Of a DNA stretch of 64,000 nt, positions 6,650 through 58,894 are shown in pieces. The position numbers and the translations under genes are program-made. The stretch is from Lineus longissimus. Taxonomy: Eukaryota > Nemertea > Pilidiophora > Heteronemertea > Lineidae. How positions within the stretch are numbered: position 1 is the stretch's first letter; every line of letters starts with the position of its first letter. The notes under the pieces are model-generated. The model was given only the letters and a program-made list of their open reading frames with translations, ran no database searches and was not told the origin of the DNA. The stretch spans positions 5,518,001 to 5,582,000 of the forward strand of contig NC_088317.1 in assembly GCF_910592395.1 (NCBI RefSeq), given 5' to 3'.

Positions 6650-8335
6650 AAAAGTCATTAATAAGCGAGATATTGCACGTCCTACTTTTTCAGTTTTGAC
6701 CCCCTGGTGGCCAAATCAAGAATCAGATCAGGCCAAAATTCGGTGTCAGAGATTATATGATGTAGGGGGTTACATGTACCAACTTTCAAGTTCATAGCTT
6801 TAGCAGTTAAGAAACGTGCCATAGTTACACTCGAACGGTCAATTTACGCCATTTGACCTCTGTGACCTAGAAAAGGAGGTCAAATCCAAAAATCATAGGA
6901 AATGTGATGTATCCTTGCTAGGAGTCCCTGCCATAAAATTTTATCGAAAACAATTCACTCAAATAGGCAAGATATTGCACTTCTTCCTTTTTCCGTTATG
7001 GCCCCCTGGTGGCCGAATAAAGAACCAGATCAGGCCAAAATTCGACATCAGACGTTATCTGATGTAGGGGGTTATATGCACCAAGTTTCAAGTTCATAGC
7101 TTTACTGGTTAAGAAACGTGCCATAGTTTACACTCTAACAGCCAATTTACGCCATATGACTTCTGTGACCTTGAAAAGTAGGTCAAATTGAAAACCCGTA
7201 AAATATGTGATGTATTCTTCCAAACAGTACCTACCATAAGAATTTTATCGAAAACAAGTCACTTATAAGCGAGATATCACACTTTTTAGATTTCCACTTT
7301 TGGCCCCCTGGTGGCAAAGTTAGGAATCAGATCGAACCAAAATTCAGCGCCAGAGGCTATGTGATATAGGGGGTTATATGTACCAAGTTTCAAGTTCATA
7401 GCTTTAGTGGTTAAGAAACGTGCCATAGTTTACACTCTAATGGCCAATTTACGCCATATGACCTCTGTGACCTTGAAAAGTAGGTCAAATTGAAAACCCG
7501 TAAGACATGTGATGTATTCTTCCTAAGAGTACCTACCATAAACATTTTATCGAAAACAAGTCACTTATAAGCGAGATATCACACTTTTTAGATTTCCACT
7601 TTTGGCCCCCTGGTGGCAAAGTTAGGAATCAGATCGAACCAAAATTCAGCACCAGAGGCTATGTGATATAGGGGGTTATATGTACCAGGTTTCAAGTTCA
7701 TAGCTTTAGTGGTTAAGAAACGTGCCATAGTTTACACTCTAATGGCCAATTTACGCCATATGACCTCTGCGACCTTGAAAACAAGGTCAAATTAAAAACC
7801 CGTATAATATAAAATGTATATTTGCTATGAGTACCTACAACAAAAGTTTTATCGAAAACAAGTCACTAATAAGCGAGATATCACACTTTTTAGATTTCCA
7901 CTTTTGGCCCCCTGGTGGCAAAGTTAGGAATCAGATCGAACCAAAATTCAGCACCAGAGGCTATGTGATATAGGGGGTTATATGTACCAAGTTTCAAGTT
8001 CATAGCTTTAGTGGTTAAGAAACGTGCCATAGTTTACACTCTAATGGCCAATTTACGCCATATGACCTCTGCGACCTTGAAAACAAGGTCAAATTAAAAA
8101 CCCGTATAATATAAAATGTATATTTGCTATGAGTACCTACAACAAAAGTTTTATCGAAAACAAGTCACTGATAAGCGAGATATCACACTTTTTAGATATC
8201 GACATTTGGCCCCCTGGTGGCCAAACAGAGAATCAGATCGGACCGAAAATCAGTGTCAGAGGTCAGCTGACCTAGGGCATTCTGTGTACAAAGTTTCAAG
8301 TTCATAGCCCTAGCAGTTAAGAAACGTGCCACTGT
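6650..8335 (+). repeat. ~300-bp core tandem units of HINE copy 1
   Basis: Repeated landmarks 'taagaaacgtgccat' recur near 6810, 7110, 7410, 7715, 8020 and 8320. The two units around 7560-7860 and 7865-8165 are nearly identical, indicating a recent duplication, while the first and last are more diverged. Confidence 0.9.
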
Positions 8336-48916: not shown

Positions 48917-50060
48917 TTGCACTTTTTACCTATTTCAGTTTTGGCCTCCTGGTGGCCAAGTTGAGTACCAGATCAAATCGAAATTCGCAGTCCGAGGTAA
49001 CATGACGTAGGGAGTCATGTGTACCAAATTTCAAGTTCATAGCTTTAGTGGTTAAGAAACGTGCCATAAACGACCAATTTACGCCATTTGACCTCTGTGA
49101 CCTTGAAAAGCAGGTCAAATCAAACACTCATATGATATGTGATGTATCCTTGCTTGGAGAACCTACCATAAAAATGTTATTGAAAACGAATCACTAATAA
49201 GCGAGATATCACATTTTCGAGGTTTTCACTTTTGGCCCCCTGGTGGCCAAGTCGAGAATCAGACCGGACTGAAATCAGGGTCAGACGTCAGCTGACCTAG
49301 GGGGTCCTTTGTACAAAGTCTCAAGTTCATAGCCTTAGGGGTTAACAAACGTTCCACAGTTACGCTCAAATGGCCAATTTACGCCATTTGACCTCTGTGA
49401 TCTTGACAGTACGTCAAATCAAAACCCGTATCATATGTGATGTATCCTTGCTACGAGTATCTACCATAAAATTTTTACCAAAAGCTAATCAGTAATAAGC
49501 GAGATATGGCACTATTCAAATTTTTGGTTTTGGCCCCCTGGTGGTCAAGTTAAGAATCAGACCGGCTCGAAAATCAGTGTCACAGGTCATCTGACCTAGG
49601 GGGGTCATGTGTACCAAGTTTAAAGTTCATAGCTTTAATGGTTAAGAAACGTGCCATATTTACACACAGACGGCCAATTCACACCATTTGACCTCTGTGA
49701 CCTTGAAAGTACGCCACATCGACCTAATTTTTTGTCAACATGTAGAGCTACTTAACAGACAAAACGTGCCACTATCGGTGAAATTTTAGAGTTTGACCTC
49801 TGTGACCTTGACAAGTAGGTCAAATCAAAAACCCGTATGATATGTGATGTATCCTTGCTAGGGATGCCCACCATAAAAATTTTAGCAAAAACAAATCAGT
49901 AATAAACGATTTATCGCACTTTTTAAGTTTTTGGTTTTATCCCCTGGTGGCCAGGTGAAGAATAAGACTGGACCAAAATTCGCTGCCAGAGGTCATGTGA
50001 CCTAGGTCATAATGTGTACAAAGTTTCAAGTTCATAGCACTAGCGGTTAAGAAACGTGCC
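48917..50060 (+). repeat. Core tandem units of HINE copy 2
   Basis: Roughly four ~300-bp units with 'ggccccctggtggcc', 'aagaaacgtgcca' and 'gacctctgtgaccttga'. More diverged from each other than in copy 1; a short extra duplication of the nuclear-receptor-like motif lies near 49690-49830. Confidence 0.85.
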
Positions 50061-50478: not shown

Positions 50479-51065
50479 AATGAAATGGCCAGGGCCATTG
50501 TGCTCACCTCTTGTGAAGGGAAGATGGATGAAGCATTAGCATGGTTTTAAATGTAAGAAAGCATTTCAAGGCACCCTTAGGGGAGAGTCCACTATTAACA
50601 TTTGGGGCCCTGCTGGCCAAACTGAGAATCAGAAAAAGACTGCAGTTTAGTCTAAGAGTATAGGGGTACATTCGTACCAAGTTAGGGATCTGTAGCTAAA
50701 GCAGTGACAAAACGTGCCGTCATTGTAAAATGGCGGTGCCATAGGAAAACTTTGACCTCTGTGACCTTGAGAAGTAGGTCAAATCAAAAACCCATATCTA
50801 TGAAATGTATCCTTGCTAGGAGTACCTACCATAAAAATGTCATGAAAATCAGACCACTATTAAATAGACCACGTGCTAACAGTATTTATTCTAAACTTCC
50901 GTTTGACACTTTATGGAACAAAGCTTTTTCTTTTGTAAAGTATTGTTAGGCTTTAGTACAATACAGAATTGCAAAGTTCACCCAGGTAACCATGCACACT
51001 AATTGGTAATTACTATTTAAACATGCCCCAGATGCCGACCTCTTTATTCCTCTTTTTATATAAAT

Positions 51066-51119
51066 CCTTAGTATATACTAAGGCTTATAGGTGGCATATA
51101 TACGATTTTAACCAATCAG
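51066..51119 (+). promoter_or_regulatory. Putative promoter of the FEN/PIN-like gene
   Basis: Contains a perfect 18-bp palindrome CCTTAGTATATACTAAGG (51066-51083), a TATA-like 'gcatatatacg' (about 51094-51104) and a CCAAT box 'accaatcag' (51111-51119), all within 85 bp of the start codon at 51148. The promoter role is inferred from motif content. Confidence 0.5.
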
Positions 51120-51147
51120 AGAGTCCCTTGGGCCCTTCTTGCCCAAG

Positions 51148-54100
51148 ATGGCTGCCCCCATGAAACATGTGAAATGTTGTTTACATATTTGTGAAAACGA
51201 AAATTCCAATTTTAAACCGATTTCTCAATCAAGTTTCGAGAAAATTAGGAGTAGTATAGGTGAATGGATTGTTTTACCTGGTACAGAAAGTGTTATATCC
51301 AAGGAATTGTCAGCAAAACCTAGTTTATGCAAGGAACACCCAACTTTGTTTTCTGGACCTTCAGATTGTGTTCAATGTATTGATAGTGTATGTGACTTGG
51401 GGTACCATCGGTTATGTTACTCGCGGTTTACTGATGTGGTGAGGATAAGGAAAAGGAAAAGCAGTGCCGCTAAATCTAAGGCCAATAGGCCTCCTGAAGA
51501 ACCTCAAACTCTAAATAATTCTGTACAAGACGTTGATGCAGTGCCACCAAAACGCCTCCTCCGAATCCGCTCCGCTTTACCGCAGCCAGGTCATGGCACA
51601 AATGAAGGATCAGTTGAGATTAGTAGAGAAAGTAGATTAGGTCTATTTCCACAGAAATGTCTCCTTTGCGAAGCAGAGCAGTATTTCACTCAAAATCATG
51701 ACCAGAAAAGGAAAAAGGAACCTTTGACTCAGTGTTTAACTTTCGAAGCTGCAGAATGGTTGCAATTGGCTGCATCGGCTAAGCAGCATGAAACACTTTT
51801 GCTTCGGATTATTGGTCAGGACCTTGTTGCAAAGGAAGCCAGGTATCACAGGTCATGCTATCGCAAATACATAAAGTGTTTAAAACAGGACAGTGCTGCA
51901 GCTGGTTCAAAAAAGGATATGTTTTGTGAGGCTGGGTTTGCCTCATTCAGCACAACTGTCATTGAATGCAAGATCCTAAAGAACAATGAAATATTGACAA
52001 TGAACACTTTAATGTCCCTGTTCAAGGAACGTGTGAAGCAAAGTGAGTCTGGATTACCTGTAGGCCCATGGACTTACAGAAATTGCCAACTGAAAAGGCG
52101 CCTTCAAAGGCAATACCCTCAATTAATTTTCCTGAAGAAAACGCGAAGAAGCACATCAGAAATAGTACTTTGTGAGTTTGAAAGTGGGCCTCGGATAGTT
52201 CCAGCCCATAAAATTGGTAGCACATCAGCCAGTGAATCAAACAGCGAGACTGAGGATGACGGTGACCTAGAACTAGATGACTTGAAGTTGAAGCCCGATG
52301 CTAGCCTGAAAAGTAGTCTCTACATGTCAGCCATGCATTTGCGGAATGCATTAGCTGATGCCCCACCCTTGCAATCTCCATGGCCACCAACAGCAGAAAA
52401 CATGAAAGATGAGGACATAAAATCTATGGTTCCTCCTGATTTGTTTAACTTTATTGTGTGGGTTGTTGGGGGATCTGAGGATGCACTGTTTGATGGGTAT
52501 GTGGATGTAAATCAAGATGTGAAAACAAAGGTTTTCTCCATCTCCCAGGATATCATATACCTTGCATCAAAAGGGCGGAAGATGACACCAAAACACCTTG
52601 CCCTTGGGATGACTATGAGGCACCTTACTGGTTCTTCCGAAGTGATAGGACTGCTAAATGGATTTGGCCATTCAGTTTCCCACTCAAAGGTATTGGAGCA
52701 TGACACTGCTCTGGCCGAGAGGCAGTTGTATTTGAACGATGCACTTCCAGACGGCTTTGTAAAGGGGCAGCCAACCTCTCTTGCATGGGACAACAACGAT
52801 TTTGGGGAGGAGACTGTGACTGGAGCTGGTACAACCCACAACACGAATGGGATAATCATCCAGCGGGTTGTAGCTGAAAACCAGGATGGTCATCATCAAG
52901 TTAATCTGAAGCCAAGTCGACGACGAACGCTAAATCCTCCGGAGCAAAGGATTGTTCCATATATAAGTGGGAAGAAAGTAGGGCCTCCAAAAGAGTTCAA
53001 AGTCACTGATGGCTCCACATTAGATTCAAAAGCTTTGGAACATGGAAGGTTCACGGATATGGCATACATCATATGCAAATCAGCTGGGCAGGATGAAGCA
53101 AAGCTTCCAGGATGGACAGGTTTTAATACCTTACTAAACAAGGACAAGATCCCGCCCCTTAGCAGAGTTGGTTACCTTCCCATAATCGATGCCAGCCCAA
53201 CTGAGATGTCAACAGTGCAAGAAGTTCTTCGTCAGAGTGTGAAAATTGCGGATAGGTTAGAATTGGCCACAATAGTCTTAGTTTTTGACCAAGCCATATA
53301 TTACAAAGCGCAACAGATCAGATGGAAAGATGACACTCTCAGCCAACGAACTGTCATCAGGCTTGGTCAGTTCCACACAGCTAAGACGTACCTCGCAGTT
53401 CTGGGGAAAAGGTTCAAAGATGCGGGATTGAGTGACATTATGGTTGAGTCAGGCGCAGTAGCTGCGGGTTCTGTTAATCAAGTCATGACAGGTAACCATT
53501 ACAATAGGGCAATGAGGTGCCACAAGCTTGTGTATGAGGCCTTACACAGGTTGTGTTGGCAGGAGTACCTCGAAAGTCTTCCAGAATCTGAAGCAATCAT
53601 CCTCCACAACTTTGCTGAGGAACTCACAAGCAATGTACAGGATCCAGAACATTTTGAAGCGATGGTTGCCTCTCAAATGTTTGTAGATGCTATGCAGAAC
53701 TTCAACTCCTTCATGAGTAAACGTGTCATTGACAGCCCCACATTCGCACTATGGGATTCGTATATGTCCATGGTTGAATGCCTCCTCCAGTTCGTCCGTG
53801 CCACCAGGGAAGGAAATTGGAACCTTCATCTTGCGTCATTGCACAGTATGTTGCCGTGGTTCTTTGCGTATGACAGGACGAACTACGCAAGATACGCACC
53901 AGTCTATCTTCTAGAGATGCAGAATTTGGTGACGAGCCATCCCGGAATCCACCAGCAGATGTTGGCAGGCGGGTTTGTGGTCCAAAGACAAACAAGGCAT
54001 GGATTTGCGCAGACTGCTGTGGACCAAACCATCGAGCAAACTGTCAACAGGGATTCGAAAACTAAAGGCGGGTTGACCGGGATCACTGTGAAGAAGGGAG

Positions 54101-56031
54101 CTGTTCATCGCTGGATACTGTCTCATCCAGCCAGAGCCCAAATCAGCCGAAGGTGTTCCGAGATGGCGGGAAAAAGCGACACGACCCGAACAAGAAAGGA
54201 CCTCGACCGTTCAAGAATTGCTGCTGATGAAAAGGCTGTCCAAAATGTGATATCGACCATACAGTCAATGAACAACCCGTTCAAGATTGCAGACGATTGC
54301 CTGGTGAACATTGTCAGTGGTGTCGTGGCCTCAGCAGAAATACAGAAAGATATGAATAGGGCAGAAACAGTTGGCCAGCTTGCTTTAAATGATTACATTG
54401 AGACCAATGTCATGGGGGCTGAGAAAAACATTTACTGCACATTGAAACTGATGAAGTTGAAAACGTTCTCGGATTCTAACGGACCGAGTCCAACAAGAGA
54501 CAAAGTGCTGAACATTTCGCTGAAATCTAACACAGACCTCCTCGGCCGAATGGTAGTTGTTGGAAGGGCAAAGAACGTTGATATGGAAGATGCATTGACT
54601 TACAGCCTCCATCCCTATCCACCATCTCTCACAACCCATGGCGGTACATTAGCCAAGACAGACAAGGCCAGGCTGGCTCGGCATATTGAAGGACTAGTTG
54701 AGACGGAGATGGAGCCAGCTCTTTCAGGTGCCTGGATTCTGGATGGAATGGCTGTCATTCAGAAACTCAAAGATATCCCTGATACCTTTGAAAAGTTGGC
54801 CCTCAAGATACTGCGACAAGTCGTAAACATTGCATCTAAGCATGGGGCAAGAAGAGTTGATTTTGTGGCTGACTTGTATCCACAGATGAGCATCAAGGGA
54901 TCTGAGAGGAACAGGCGGGCGTCTTCTGGAGTTCAGCAGATTACCATCACCAGGCCAGAGCAGAAGACTCCACGACAATTTGCAAAGTATCTTGCATGTG
55001 GAAAGAACAAAGAGACATTTGTTGAGTTCCTGTTCCAGCAGTGGAGTAGTGTACCATCCCAAGAACTAAAAGAGACCACACTTCTCATCACGCACGGTCA
55101 GAAATGCCACTCCCTGTATCAAGAAGAGGATGGCATTGTTGTGGAGGAAGTCACAGCCCTGTCCTGTGATCATGAAGAGGCGGACACAAGGATGCTGTTG
55201 CATGCCAAACATGCTGCAAATGATCACGAAGAAGTCATCATCCGTAGTGACGACACTGATGTCTTCATCATTGCCATTTCACTTTCCTCACAGATACCCA
55301 CAAATCTGTATCTGCACATGGGGCCCATCTCCAGCTACAGGGTAGTTCATGTCAACACACTGGCATCCAAACTAGGAGGTGACGTCTGCAAAGCCCTGAT
55401 TGGGGTTCACACTTTCACAGGTTGTGATAGTGTGAGTGCCTTCAAAGGGAAAGGAAAGCTCAAAGCTTTCAGCCTTGCGCAGGAAAATCTACACTTCAGG
55501 CAGTTCTTTATGGATCTCGGACAGTCTTGGACACTTGATAGCATTTCTCTCGACTTCATGGAACAGTTTGTCTGCCATCTGTATGGAAAATCCAACATGA
55601 CAAGTGTCAATGCTGTGAGATATGAAATGTTCTGCCTGCGCTTCAAGATAGATAGCACACTTCCACCCAACAAGGATGCTCTCATGCAGCATTTGAAACG
55701 TGCCAACTATCAAGCAGCTATCCATCGTCGGAGTATTGCATGCAAAATTGATGCCCCAAGTCCAGTGACAAATGGATGGAAAGATGACGGTGGATATCTA
55801 GGAGTGGAATGGATCACACTGCCCTTTGCACCGAACTCTCTCATGAAGTATGTCTCTTGCAAGTGCAAGACAGGATGCACAAGTGGGAAGTGCTCTTGCA
55901 AGGAAACTGGTTGTACTGGGCTTTGCGCATGCACTGACTGCCAGAACAAGAAGGAGACCAATGCTGAAACCCCAGTTGATACTGACTCTGACTGCGAGTC
56001 AGATACAGAACTAGATGATGAAGAGGAATGA
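51148..56031 (+). CDS. Intact 1627-residue FEN/PIN-like nuclease with CXC domain (copy B)
   Basis: Starts at ATG 51148 (MAAPMKHVKCCLH; context aagATGG) and is uninterrupted. Modules: N-terminal Cys/His region (C10, C11, C15, then C74-x2-C77, C82, H87, C90) and a second one (C171-x2-C174, H234, C237 in 'AKEARYHRSCYRKY'); an acidic linker near 360-380; a conserved centre ('LAWDNNDFGEETVTG' near 546, 'LGQFHTAKTYLAVLGK' near 739, 'GNHYNRAMRCHKL'). The C-terminal nuclease-like region has 'AWILDGMAV' (D1199), 'DFVADLYPQMSIKGSERNRR' (D1242), 'DHEEADTRMLLHAKHA' (near 1342), 'VIIRSDDTDVFII' (D1368, D1369, D1371) and 'FTGCDSVSAFKGKGK' (D1427). This is the spacing of XPG-N, XPG-I and helix-3-turn-helix parts of FEN-type enzymes. 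A Cys-rich CXC (tesmin/TSO1-like) domain is at about 1571-1598, then an acidic tail. Function as an element nuclease is inferred. Confidence 0.85.
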   Translation: MAAPMKHVKCCLHICENENSNFKPISQSSFEKIRSSIGEWIVLPGTESVISKELSAKPSLCKEHPTLFSGPSDCVQCIDSVCDLGYHRLCYSRFTDVVRIRKRKSSAAKSKANRPPEEPQTLNNSVQDVDAVPPKRLLRIRSALPQPGHGTNEGSVEISRESRLGLFPQKCLLCEAEQYFTQNHDQKRKKEPLTQCLTFEAAEWLQLAASAKQHETLLLRIIGQDLVAKEARYHRSCYRKYIKCLKQDSAAAGSKKDMFCEAGFASFSTTVIECKILKNNEILTMNTLMSLFKERVKQSESGLPVGPWTYRNCQLKRRLQRQYPQLIFLKKTRRSTSEIVLCEFESGPRIVPAHKIGSTSASESNSETEDDGDLELDDLKLKPDASLKSSLYMSAMHLRNALADAPPLQSPWPPTAENMKDEDIKSMVPPDLFNFIVWVVGGSEDALFDGYVDVNQDVKTKVFSISQDIIYLASKGRKMTPKHLALGMTMRHLTGSSEVIGLLNGFGHSVSHSKVLEHDTALAERQLYLNDALPDGFVKGQPTSLAWDNNDFGEETVTGAGTTHNTNGIIIQRVVAENQDGHHQVNLKPSRRRTLNPPEQRIVPYISGKKVGPPKEFKVTDGSTLDSKALEHGRFTDMAYIICKSAGQDEAKLPGWTGFNTLLNKDKIPPLSRVGYLPIIDASPTEMSTVQEVLRQSVKIADRLELATIVLVFDQAIYYKAQQIRWKDDTLSQRTVIRLGQFHTAKTYLAVLGKRFKDAGLSDIMVESGAVAAGSVNQVMTGNHYNRAMRCHKLVYEALHRLCWQEYLESLPESEAIILHNFAEELTSNVQDPEHFEAMVASQMFVDAMQNFNSFMSKRVIDSPTFALWDSYMSMVECLLQFVRATREGNWNLHLASLHSMLPWFFAYDRTNYARYAPVYLLEMQNLVTSHPGIHQQMLAGGFVVQRQTRHGFAQTAVDQTIEQTVNRDSKTKGGLTGITVKKGAVHRWILSHPARAQISRRCSEMAGKSDTTRTRKDLDRSRIAADEKAVQNVISTIQSMNNPFKIADDCLVNIVSGVVASAEIQKDMNRAETVGQLALNDYIETNVMGAEKNIYCTLKLMKLKTFSDSNGPSPTRDKVLNISLKSNTDLLGRMVVVGRAKNVDMEDALTYSLHPYPPSLTTHGGTLAKTDKARLARHIEGLVETEMEPALSGAWILDGMAVIQKLKDIPDTFEKLALKILRQVVNIASKHGARRVDFVADLYPQMSIKGSERNRRASSGVQQITITRPEQKTPRQFAKYLACGKNKETFVEFLFQQWSSVPSQELKETTLLITHGQKCHSLYQEEDGIVVEEVTALSCDHEEADTRMLLHAKHAANDHEEVIIRSDDTDVFIIAISLSSQIPTNLYLHMGPISSYRVVHVNTLASKLGGDVCKALIGVHTFTGCDSVSAFKGKGKLKAFSLAQENLHFRQFFMDLGQSWTLDSISLDFMEQFVCHLYGKSNMTSVNAVRYEMFCLRFKIDSTLPPNKDALMQHLKRANYQAAIHRRSIACKIDAPSPVTNGWKDDGGYLGVEWITLPFAPNSLMKYVSCKCKTGCTSGKCSCKETGCTGLCACTDCQNKKETNAETPVDTDSDCESDTELDDEEE

Positions 56032-56883
56032 TGGATGAAGCAACAGTTGTGGGCATGAGGGGTCAAAATTTATTAAAAGGACCAAACTACTAGAGTGCTT
56101 GTGAATTATGTCCTGCATGTTTAGATACATTAAATTGCAGGGAACAGCGCAGTAGTTTGAAGTCGTGAGTGGGGTTTTTGGGGTGGGTCTCATGTCGACT
56201 ACACATCAGTTATAAGCAATCATTTCTCACAAGCAATGAATATTTATCATGACAGTATGATGGAGACTGAAAGTGCTACCAATCATTCAAAAAGGGCAAG
56301 GTGCTATTTCAAAACAAAAGTAAAAAGGTTTGGAGCGAGGCATTTTCAAATTATATAAATGACTTGGATAATATCATGACATTCTATGACATTGAACCTG
56401 AACCTGAACCTGAATTTGGGTACACATATGTACACTGGACAACAGACACTTGTGATCGTGGATATTATTGTAAATACATGGAATATGCACGTTTTAAAGA
56501 CTTATCATGGACTAATACGTTGGCCTTCGTTACAAGAATAAATTCAGCGGAACTCGTTCAACAGCAATGGTAAGACAAATCTATATTCTAATTAACTTGA
56601 AGGTGAATCTAATTTCAGGTTTGTCTTCTGCAAGCTTCCAATTTATGCAGAGCCTTCGTTTTAAAAATAGTATTATCCTACCCTGCGGTGCATGATTTCT
56701 TGGCGAGAAACTTTTGCTAATAGATGTCGAAAAAAATTGCAACAATTCTGACCTAGAATTTAGTACTGAAGGGGTTAATTTGCATTTTTGTAGCTTATAA
56801 TGTAAAATATATATCAAAGAGAGTCCAAGGTGAATTAAAACAACACTTATTGGTTGGTTTTAGCTATTCATAAGCCATTGTTA
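56032..56883. other. 3' region of the FEN/PIN-like element
   Basis: About 850 bp, AT-rich, with a 90-codon open frame (56301-56573) of unknown meaning that includes a Glu-Pro repeat. I see nothing that proves it is a gene. Confidence 0.4.
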
Positions 56884-57783
56884 TTAACAAAGAGATTTAT
56901 TTTTTATTTTTCATATTTTGGCTCGTAGAGGGTTAATGTGCAGTTTTTTTTGGGAAGAACATGCATTTTTTGGATAGAGCACCCCAAAATCACCCTAGAA
57001 AACTTGTTTTCACTTTGTTCCAAGCATTGTCAAACGAAAAATTACTTCTGGCCTACTTTTTCATGCCCGTCCTGTGGCCTATAAACGAGCAATCAAACAT
57101 TTTAACTTTGGACATTAAATTTGGCCCCCGGGTGGCCAAACTAAGAATTTTTCAAGATGCCCGCCTGGCACCCATATTAACTATCACATTTGATAAAAAA
57201 ACCAAGGATTTAGTAGAGAGTACATAGATATACATCCAGATCAAATTTGGTTGCAATCCGATCATTAGTTTCGGAGTAATAGTACTGTGTTTATTTTTCA
57301 AGATGGCTGCCTGGCGGCCATATTTGATGTCCGAACGGCCAAAATTTTAGGGGTGGAATAGAGAATCCCCAGATACATGTCCACACTGGTTTAAAACCTT
57401 CTAGCTAAAATAGATAGGAAACATGCTACTGTTCAGTGAATCAGCAAACTTTGACCTCTGTGACCTTGAAAAGGAGGTCAAATCAAAAACCCGGAGGATA
57501 TATGATGCACCTTTGCTAGAAGTAACTACCATATTTTTTTCAAAATTTCCCGACTACTATTAAGGGAGATATTGCATATTTTCACTTTTAACGTTTGGCC
57601 CTCTGGTGGCCAAACCATGAAACGAATCGGACCGAAACTTGGTCTCCAAGGTGTCATTACATAAGGGTACATGTGTACCAAGTTTCAACTCAATATCTCT
57701 AACAGTTACGAAACGTGCCCTGCTAACGGACGACGGACGACGACGACGACGACGACGGACGACGGACGCCACGGTATGGGATA
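56884..57783 (+). repeat. Right part of HINE copy 3
   Basis: Diverged HINE text: 'ttggcccccgggtggccaaa' near 57121, 'gacctctgtgaccttgaaaa' near 57452, 'tggccctctggtggccaaac' near 57597 and 'gaaacgtgcc' near 57708. A (GACG)n/ACG microsatellite lies at 57727-57768. Confidence 0.8.
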
Positions 57784-57809: not shown

Positions 57810-58894
57810 AATGAAATGGCCAGGGCCATTGTGCTCACCTCATGTGGAGGAAAGATGGATAAAGAGCATGGTATTGTGTCATGTAGTGTTAGGTTTGATG
57901 TAGGTCCAAGCAATTACAATTTCCCCAAAATGGCCAATTTACAGTTCATTCGACCTCTGTGACCTTGAAAAGTAGGTCAAATCAAAGAAGACCCGGGTGA
58001 CACATTGAATGGTTGTTAGAATTAGATGTACCTATGATATAAAATTGGTGCCAATCGGGCAAGTCATTACTAGGAATAACGGCATTTTGAAGAATTTAGG
58101 ATTTGGCCCCCTTCCTGGAGGCCAAACGGCAAATCAGATCGCACCAAACTTCGGTACCTGAGATCACCTGACCAAGGGGTACATGTGTACTTAATTTGTG
58201 ATCAATAGTCATTGCAGTTAAGAAACGTGCCATAGTTATGGCCTGACGGCGAATTTACGCCATTTGACCTCTGTGACCTTGAGAAGAAGGTCAAATTAAA
58301 AACCTGTGTGACATATACTGTATGGTGGTTAGATGTACCCATGATATCAAATTGGTGGCAATCGGGCAAGAAGTTAAGGAATAATCACATTTTTAAGGTT
58401 TTTGGATTTTGCCCCCTGGTGGTCAAGTGATGAATCATATTGGACCAAACTTCGGTCCCTGAGATCACCTGACTAAGGGGTAAATGTGTACCAAATTTGG
58501 TATCAATAGTCATTGCAGTTTAGAAACGTGCCATCGTTACATCCTAACGGCCAATTTACACCATTTGACCTCTGTGACCTTGAAAAGGAGGTCAAATCAA
58601 AAACCCGGAGTATATATGATGCACCTTTGCTAGAAGTACCTACCATATTTTTTTCAAAATTTCCCGACTACTATTAAGGGAGATATTGCATATTTTCACT
58701 TTTAACGTTTGGCCCCCTGGTGGCCAAACCATGAAACGAATCAGACCGAAACTTGGTCTCCAAGGTGTCATTACATAAGGGTACATGTGTACCAAGTTTC
58801 AACTCAATATCTCTAACAGTTACAAAACGTGCCCTGCTAACGGACGACGGACGCCACGGTATGGGATAAGCTCACCTCTGCTAAGAGGTGAGCT
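57810..58894 (+). mobile_element. HINE copy 4, head-to-tail with copy 3
   Basis: A complete 1085-bp element: AATGAAATGGCCAGGGCC start, subterminal GTGCTCACCT, three core units with 'gacctctgtgaccttga' (near 57951, 58265, 58568), a short ACG-type microsatellite and the 26-base 3' hairpin (58869-58894). Its last ~430 bp are almost identical to the end of copy 3, so the two are close relatives. Its right border joins the pogo-like coding sequence in the A-run AAAAAGGGG. Confidence 0.8.

Follow-up and report, generated by a model that had tools for sequence, protein, structure and literature searches.

What moves a 6-kb insertion whose most conspicuous enzyme is a nuclease? The question is raised by a 64,000-nucleotide stretch of the Lineus longissimus genome (NC_088317.1, positions 5,518,001–5,582,000; hereafter the window), in which a recognisable repeat is interrupted by a long single-gene element. 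A sequence-only reading had described the insertion as a TTAA-targeted element built around a FEN/PIN-like nuclease, with no DDE core, and hence as what would be a new kind of mechanism, one for which it knew no published name. The computational analysis reported here indicates instead a cut-and-paste DNA transposon that fits best in AcademX, a lineage of the Academ superfamily (probability roughly 0.85, Academ being compared through published descriptions only). By predicted structure and conservation, its one protein unites a DDE transposase core with a FEN1-type nuclease.

Limits, copies and recent mobility

The genome searched comprised 391 Mb in 30 contigs, with the window on contig C10. 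The 5′ 537 bases of the element, used as a DNA query, located three genomic places, namely the window copy and two sister copies, L004 on C8 and L005 on C15; a query with the 3′ 282 bases recovered all three again at 100% (rounded), together with three short weak matches. L004 and L005 are 99.7–99.9% identical to the window copy from the left end through 57081, about 200 bp past the right boundary of 56883 read from sequence. The TATTAA at 56882 lies inside the element and is one of two such words within it, and TTAA occurs there 21 times in all. After removal of one TAAA, the joined flanks align without a gap at the junction to copies of the host repeat that are not interrupted. These copies start at 49087, 49387, 49792, 7157, 7459, 8063 and 58476 and are 71–81% identical to the joined flanks. 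The element therefore spans 50865–57081 and is bounded by a TAAA duplication. The following limits rest on the sister copies and the joined flanks.

50865..57081, + strand: whole element, 6217 bp, TAG...CTA termini
50861..50864, no strand: target site duplication, left copy (TAAA)
57082..57085, no strand: target site duplication, right copy (TAAA)
50865..50923, + strand: left terminus, imperfect terminal inverted repeat (inverted arm 50892–50923)
57013..57081, + strand: right terminus, imperfect terminal inverted repeat (inverted arm 57013–57044)

The two inverted arms are 78% complementary. The insertion into a repeat, named HINE in the earlier reading, was borne out by the uninterrupted copies elsewhere in the window. 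The repeat unit starts TTTGACCTCTGTGACCTTGA, and units lie at about 6852–8296, 49087–49930 and 57949–58799, with a spacing of mostly about 300 bp from one copy to the next.

Over 6217 bp the window copy and L005 differ by eight substitutions and one 1-base gap. The L005 frame is unbroken and encodes a protein of the same length with four amino-acid differences; residue 557 is K in L005 and E in the window, with E in 54 of the 60 rows of the conservation alignment described below. Three of the eight substitutions (50868, 50872 and 50874) fall inside 7 bp at the left terminus (simulated chance 0.00013), where L004 is the same as L005. Window positions 50861–50874 read TAGACCACGTGC in the window copy and TAGGCCATGGGC in both sister copies. 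The substitutions create AGACCAC, which occurs a second time in the host flank at 50851. The left junction of the window copy, which is also the only one of the nine insertions counted below to have a 4-bp duplication, looks like the outcome of templated or faulty repair, with the third substitution unexplained by the host flank. L004 retains both ends and has lost 2166 bp (the equivalent of window 53122–55287), with a 9-base filler, ACCCACAAA, whose sequence also adjoins the right breakpoint. The filler looks templated, and the frame left open encodes 920 aa. Repair after excision can produce such a deletion with filler, as can other repair routes.

A protein search of the same genome gave at least 32 matches; some belong to one and the same copy, and several carry stop codons. 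Four copies (L026–L029) make up a second family, whose protein is 30% identical to the query. This family also appears young, its copies being about 99.8% identical across a long aligned part; inverted repeats of 395 bp, as measured in L026 and L027, lie close to its ends, and its right part varies between copies.

Ends of the TAG...CTA type were found in nine insertions, and the duplication is 3 bp in eight of them and 4 bp in the window copy. It is AAG in L004 and TTG in L005, where the final A of the element can alternatively be assigned to the duplication to give AAAG and ATTG (4 bp); AAA, TAA, ATG and TAT in the second family; CTT in L031; and TAA in L037. Among the eight insertions other than the window copy only TAA repeats (L027 and L037), and TTAA is duplicated in none of the nine. 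L031 and L037 came from a scan for inverted TAG...CTA ends in eight further related loci, each compared with 20 shuffles of itself, and were the two in which the ends surpassed the shuffles. The terminal bases match at 20 of 20 positions in L031 and at 16 of 20 in L037 (own shuffles at most 13 in both, while shuffles of one other locus reached 15), and the search rule itself prescribed a 3–4-bp duplication for these two loci. The sensitivity of the scan is limited because, of two positive controls, L026 was recovered and L005 was missed. Collecting paralogues, as the sequence-only reading had proposed, thus defined the element ends through L004 and L005 and did not uphold TTAA-bounded limits; in place of a TTAA target at both junctions there are duplications of 3–4 bp and variable sequence. 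The element has recently been active and mobile.

Predicted DDE core and FEN-type nuclease in one protein

The element contains one intact open reading frame (ORF) on the + strand (51139–56031), encoding 1630 aa from TTG or, if translation begins with the ATG at 51148, the 1627 aa of the earlier reading. Residues are numbered here from the TTG, that is, +3 relative to the ATG.

51148..56031, + strand: single-ORF transposase-nuclease gene, 1627 aa from ATG
51169..51872 (approximate limits), + strand: N-terminal Cys/His-rich modules, probably zinc-binding (from sequence; alignment consensus CxxC...YHxxCYxxYT)
52771..54135, + strand: predicted RNase H-like DDE transposase core with a large helical insertion, residues ~545–999 (predicted models, structure comparison, conservation)
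52789–52791, + strand: D551, predicted DDE catalytic residue (predicted fold and conservation)
53287–53289, + strand: D717, predicted DDE catalytic residue (same basis)
54034–54036, + strand: E966, predicted DDE catalytic residue (same basis)
54661..55764, + strand: predicted EXO1/FEN1/XPG-fold nuclease, residues ~1175–1542 (predicted model, structure comparison, conservation)
55858..55941, + strand: CXC (tesmin/TSO1-like) cysteine motif (from sequence; LIN54 hit by the family profile)

At E≤1 the window protein matches no Pfam transposase family, only Prok-RING_1 and DUF6589 weakly, and no sequence of a solved structure. A family profile searched against the solved-structure sequences at E≤10 matched seven: LIN54 through the CXC motif (0.012), four EXO1 sequences (0.2–0.31), a hypothetical protein (0.58) and a fibronectin-binding protein (0.051) that looks unrelated. 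The CXC motif, read in the sequence earlier, has no Pfam match at E≤1 in the window copy and a Pfam TCR match in the homologue P0016 (E=6.4e-7).

The predicted fold of the C-terminal part and its conserved residues identify, computationally, an EXO1/FEN1/XPG-fold 5′ nuclease whose metal site is intact, in line with the XPG/FEN acidic motifs first noticed in the sequence. The conserved site consists of D1202, D1245, E1347, D1349, D1372, D1374 and D1430, seven positions that we take to be the relevant ones from FEN1 and EXO1. Fold and acids together place the domain among the FEN/XPG nucleases; it is about 11–13% identical to the EXO1/FEN1/XPG 5′ nucleases and differs from them in being embedded in a transposase. 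The central block, which had been suspected of hiding another catalytic fold, is most likely an RNase H-like DDE domain: structure comparison of its model gave the P element transposase (6p5a) as the best fold match at 8% identity, and Foldseek with the central domain alone returned a mixed list with no significant match. The FEN/PIN-like domain would therefore not be the only candidate nuclease of the element, as had been claimed.

Residues 420–1600 as a protein query retrieved 77 proteins, many from metagenome contigs. The named relatives are all animals, including Entelurus, Styela, Strongylocentrotus, Lytechinus, Coilia, Cirrhinus, Dendronephthya and Apostichopus. The conservation alignment comprised 59 of these 77 relatives plus the window segment (60 rows), and the predicted active sites of both the DDE core and the FEN nuclease are complete in most relatives. 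P0077, which leads to a deeper branch, can be aligned at each of the ten catalytic positions and has E in place of D1202; in P0078 and P0080, inspected by eye, the FEN motifs are kept, with LEGM for the LDGM of the window, and a CXC-like tail is present. The DDE core and the FEN nuclease appear to have diverged together.

Probable placement in the AcademX lineage

The AcademX nuclease is XPG-type, the X in the name standing for XPG. Academ and AcademX are reportedly treated by Kapitonov and Jurka 2010 and Kojima 2020. Academ is listed as a superfamily in Repbase papers (PMC5753468, PMC4455052) and among the DDD/E superfamilies (PMC9587614), and duplications of 3 or 4 bp in AcademX and of 9 or 10 in AcademH are tied to the encoded enzymes, helicase and nuclease (PMC10045372). 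The present element shares with AcademX its 3- or 4-bp duplications and a nuclease encoded beside the transposase, here with a predicted EXO1/FEN1/XPG fold and a conserved acidic site, and with Academ a DDE transposase domain, recognised here by predicted structure and conservation and by no sequence profile. Its 6217 bp are similar to the mean length of 5565 bp given for bivalve Academ consensuses in PMC10294476. The element fits a known lineage and is therefore a good example of it, not a new class. The papers searched yielded little on the AcademX lineage; none of them combined Academ, XPG and transposon, and none mentioned DUF6589.

Deeper searches, aimed at helicase-bearing AcademH, began from the most divergent relatives and yielded 5 and 12 proteins (queries included; in one search scoring was limited to the 7988 candidates with the most words in common), among whose precomputed Pfam domains, where given, no helicase occurs. 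This lack of a match does not show AcademH to be unrelated.

Other groups were rejected on their duplications. Kolobok and piggyBac-like elements duplicate TTAA, which is found in 0/9 insertions here. P elements have 8-bp duplications, and the Drosophila P element is not known to carry a FEN domain; the predicted FEN domain and the 3–4-bp duplications set the present element apart from it. Zisupton and its kin (KDZ) have 8-bp duplications in Zisupton and 7-bp duplications in two Kyakuja families (PMC12730594), versus 3–4 bp here.

The strongest rival, which we consider unlikely, is a superfamily not yet described that stands beside AcademX and in which a P-element-like DDE core independently gained an XPG-type nuclease. 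The lack of a Pfam transposase match and the P element as best fold match agree with it, as does the fact that Academ is known here by description alone, whereas the joint occurrence of DDE core, nuclease and 3–4-bp duplications fits what PMC10045372 and PMC9587614 give for AcademX and Academ. Far less probable is a TTAA-inserting transposon driven only by a FEN/PIN nuclease: the predicted FEN fold speaks for it and TTAA does overlap the left junction, CTATTAAA followed by TAGACC, by chance, but the predicted DDE core, the absence of TTAA duplications and the position of the right TTAA about 200 bp inside the element oppose it. A single long intact frame that has homologues across many animals might suggest a host gene, ordinary or domesticated, carrying FEN and CXC domains. 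This is scarcely credible, because almost identical copies lie on three contigs and have terminal repeats and duplications, and several related copies contain stop codons; the earlier reading was right to see a mobile element.

A possible division of labour

The element would cut its ends with a DDE core of the P-element/hAT type with its long helical insertion and join them to a target cut with a 3–4-bp stagger. The N-terminal zinc-type modules may bind ends or target, and the CXC motif may bind DNA or chromatin. The FEN part would most likely serve to remove the 5′ (non-transferred) strand or 5′ flaps that DDE chemistry leaves, during excision or after strand transfer. In Tn7, the DDE enzyme TnsB works with a second nuclease, TnsA, that cuts the other strand. 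The present element may share this division of labour, although TnsA is restriction-enzyme-like and a separate protein, whereas the nuclease here is predicted to be FEN-fold and fused to the transposase. A stronger version, which we advance only tentatively, is that the FEN domain might be indispensable as a second catalytic centre: the DDE core would cut and transfer nothing but the 3′ ends, and the 5′ strands would be freed by the fused 5′ flap nuclease, in a eukaryotic counterpart of the TnsA/TnsB split.

By class the element is an ordinary member of a known lineage, and the testable novel point is whether the FEN site is required. With young copies, two of them with complete frames, the family is therefore suited to cell assays on why a transposon carries a flap nuclease. 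If the FEN domain is obligatory, loss of its site would yield branched or cointegrate products rather than clean cut-and-paste insertions.
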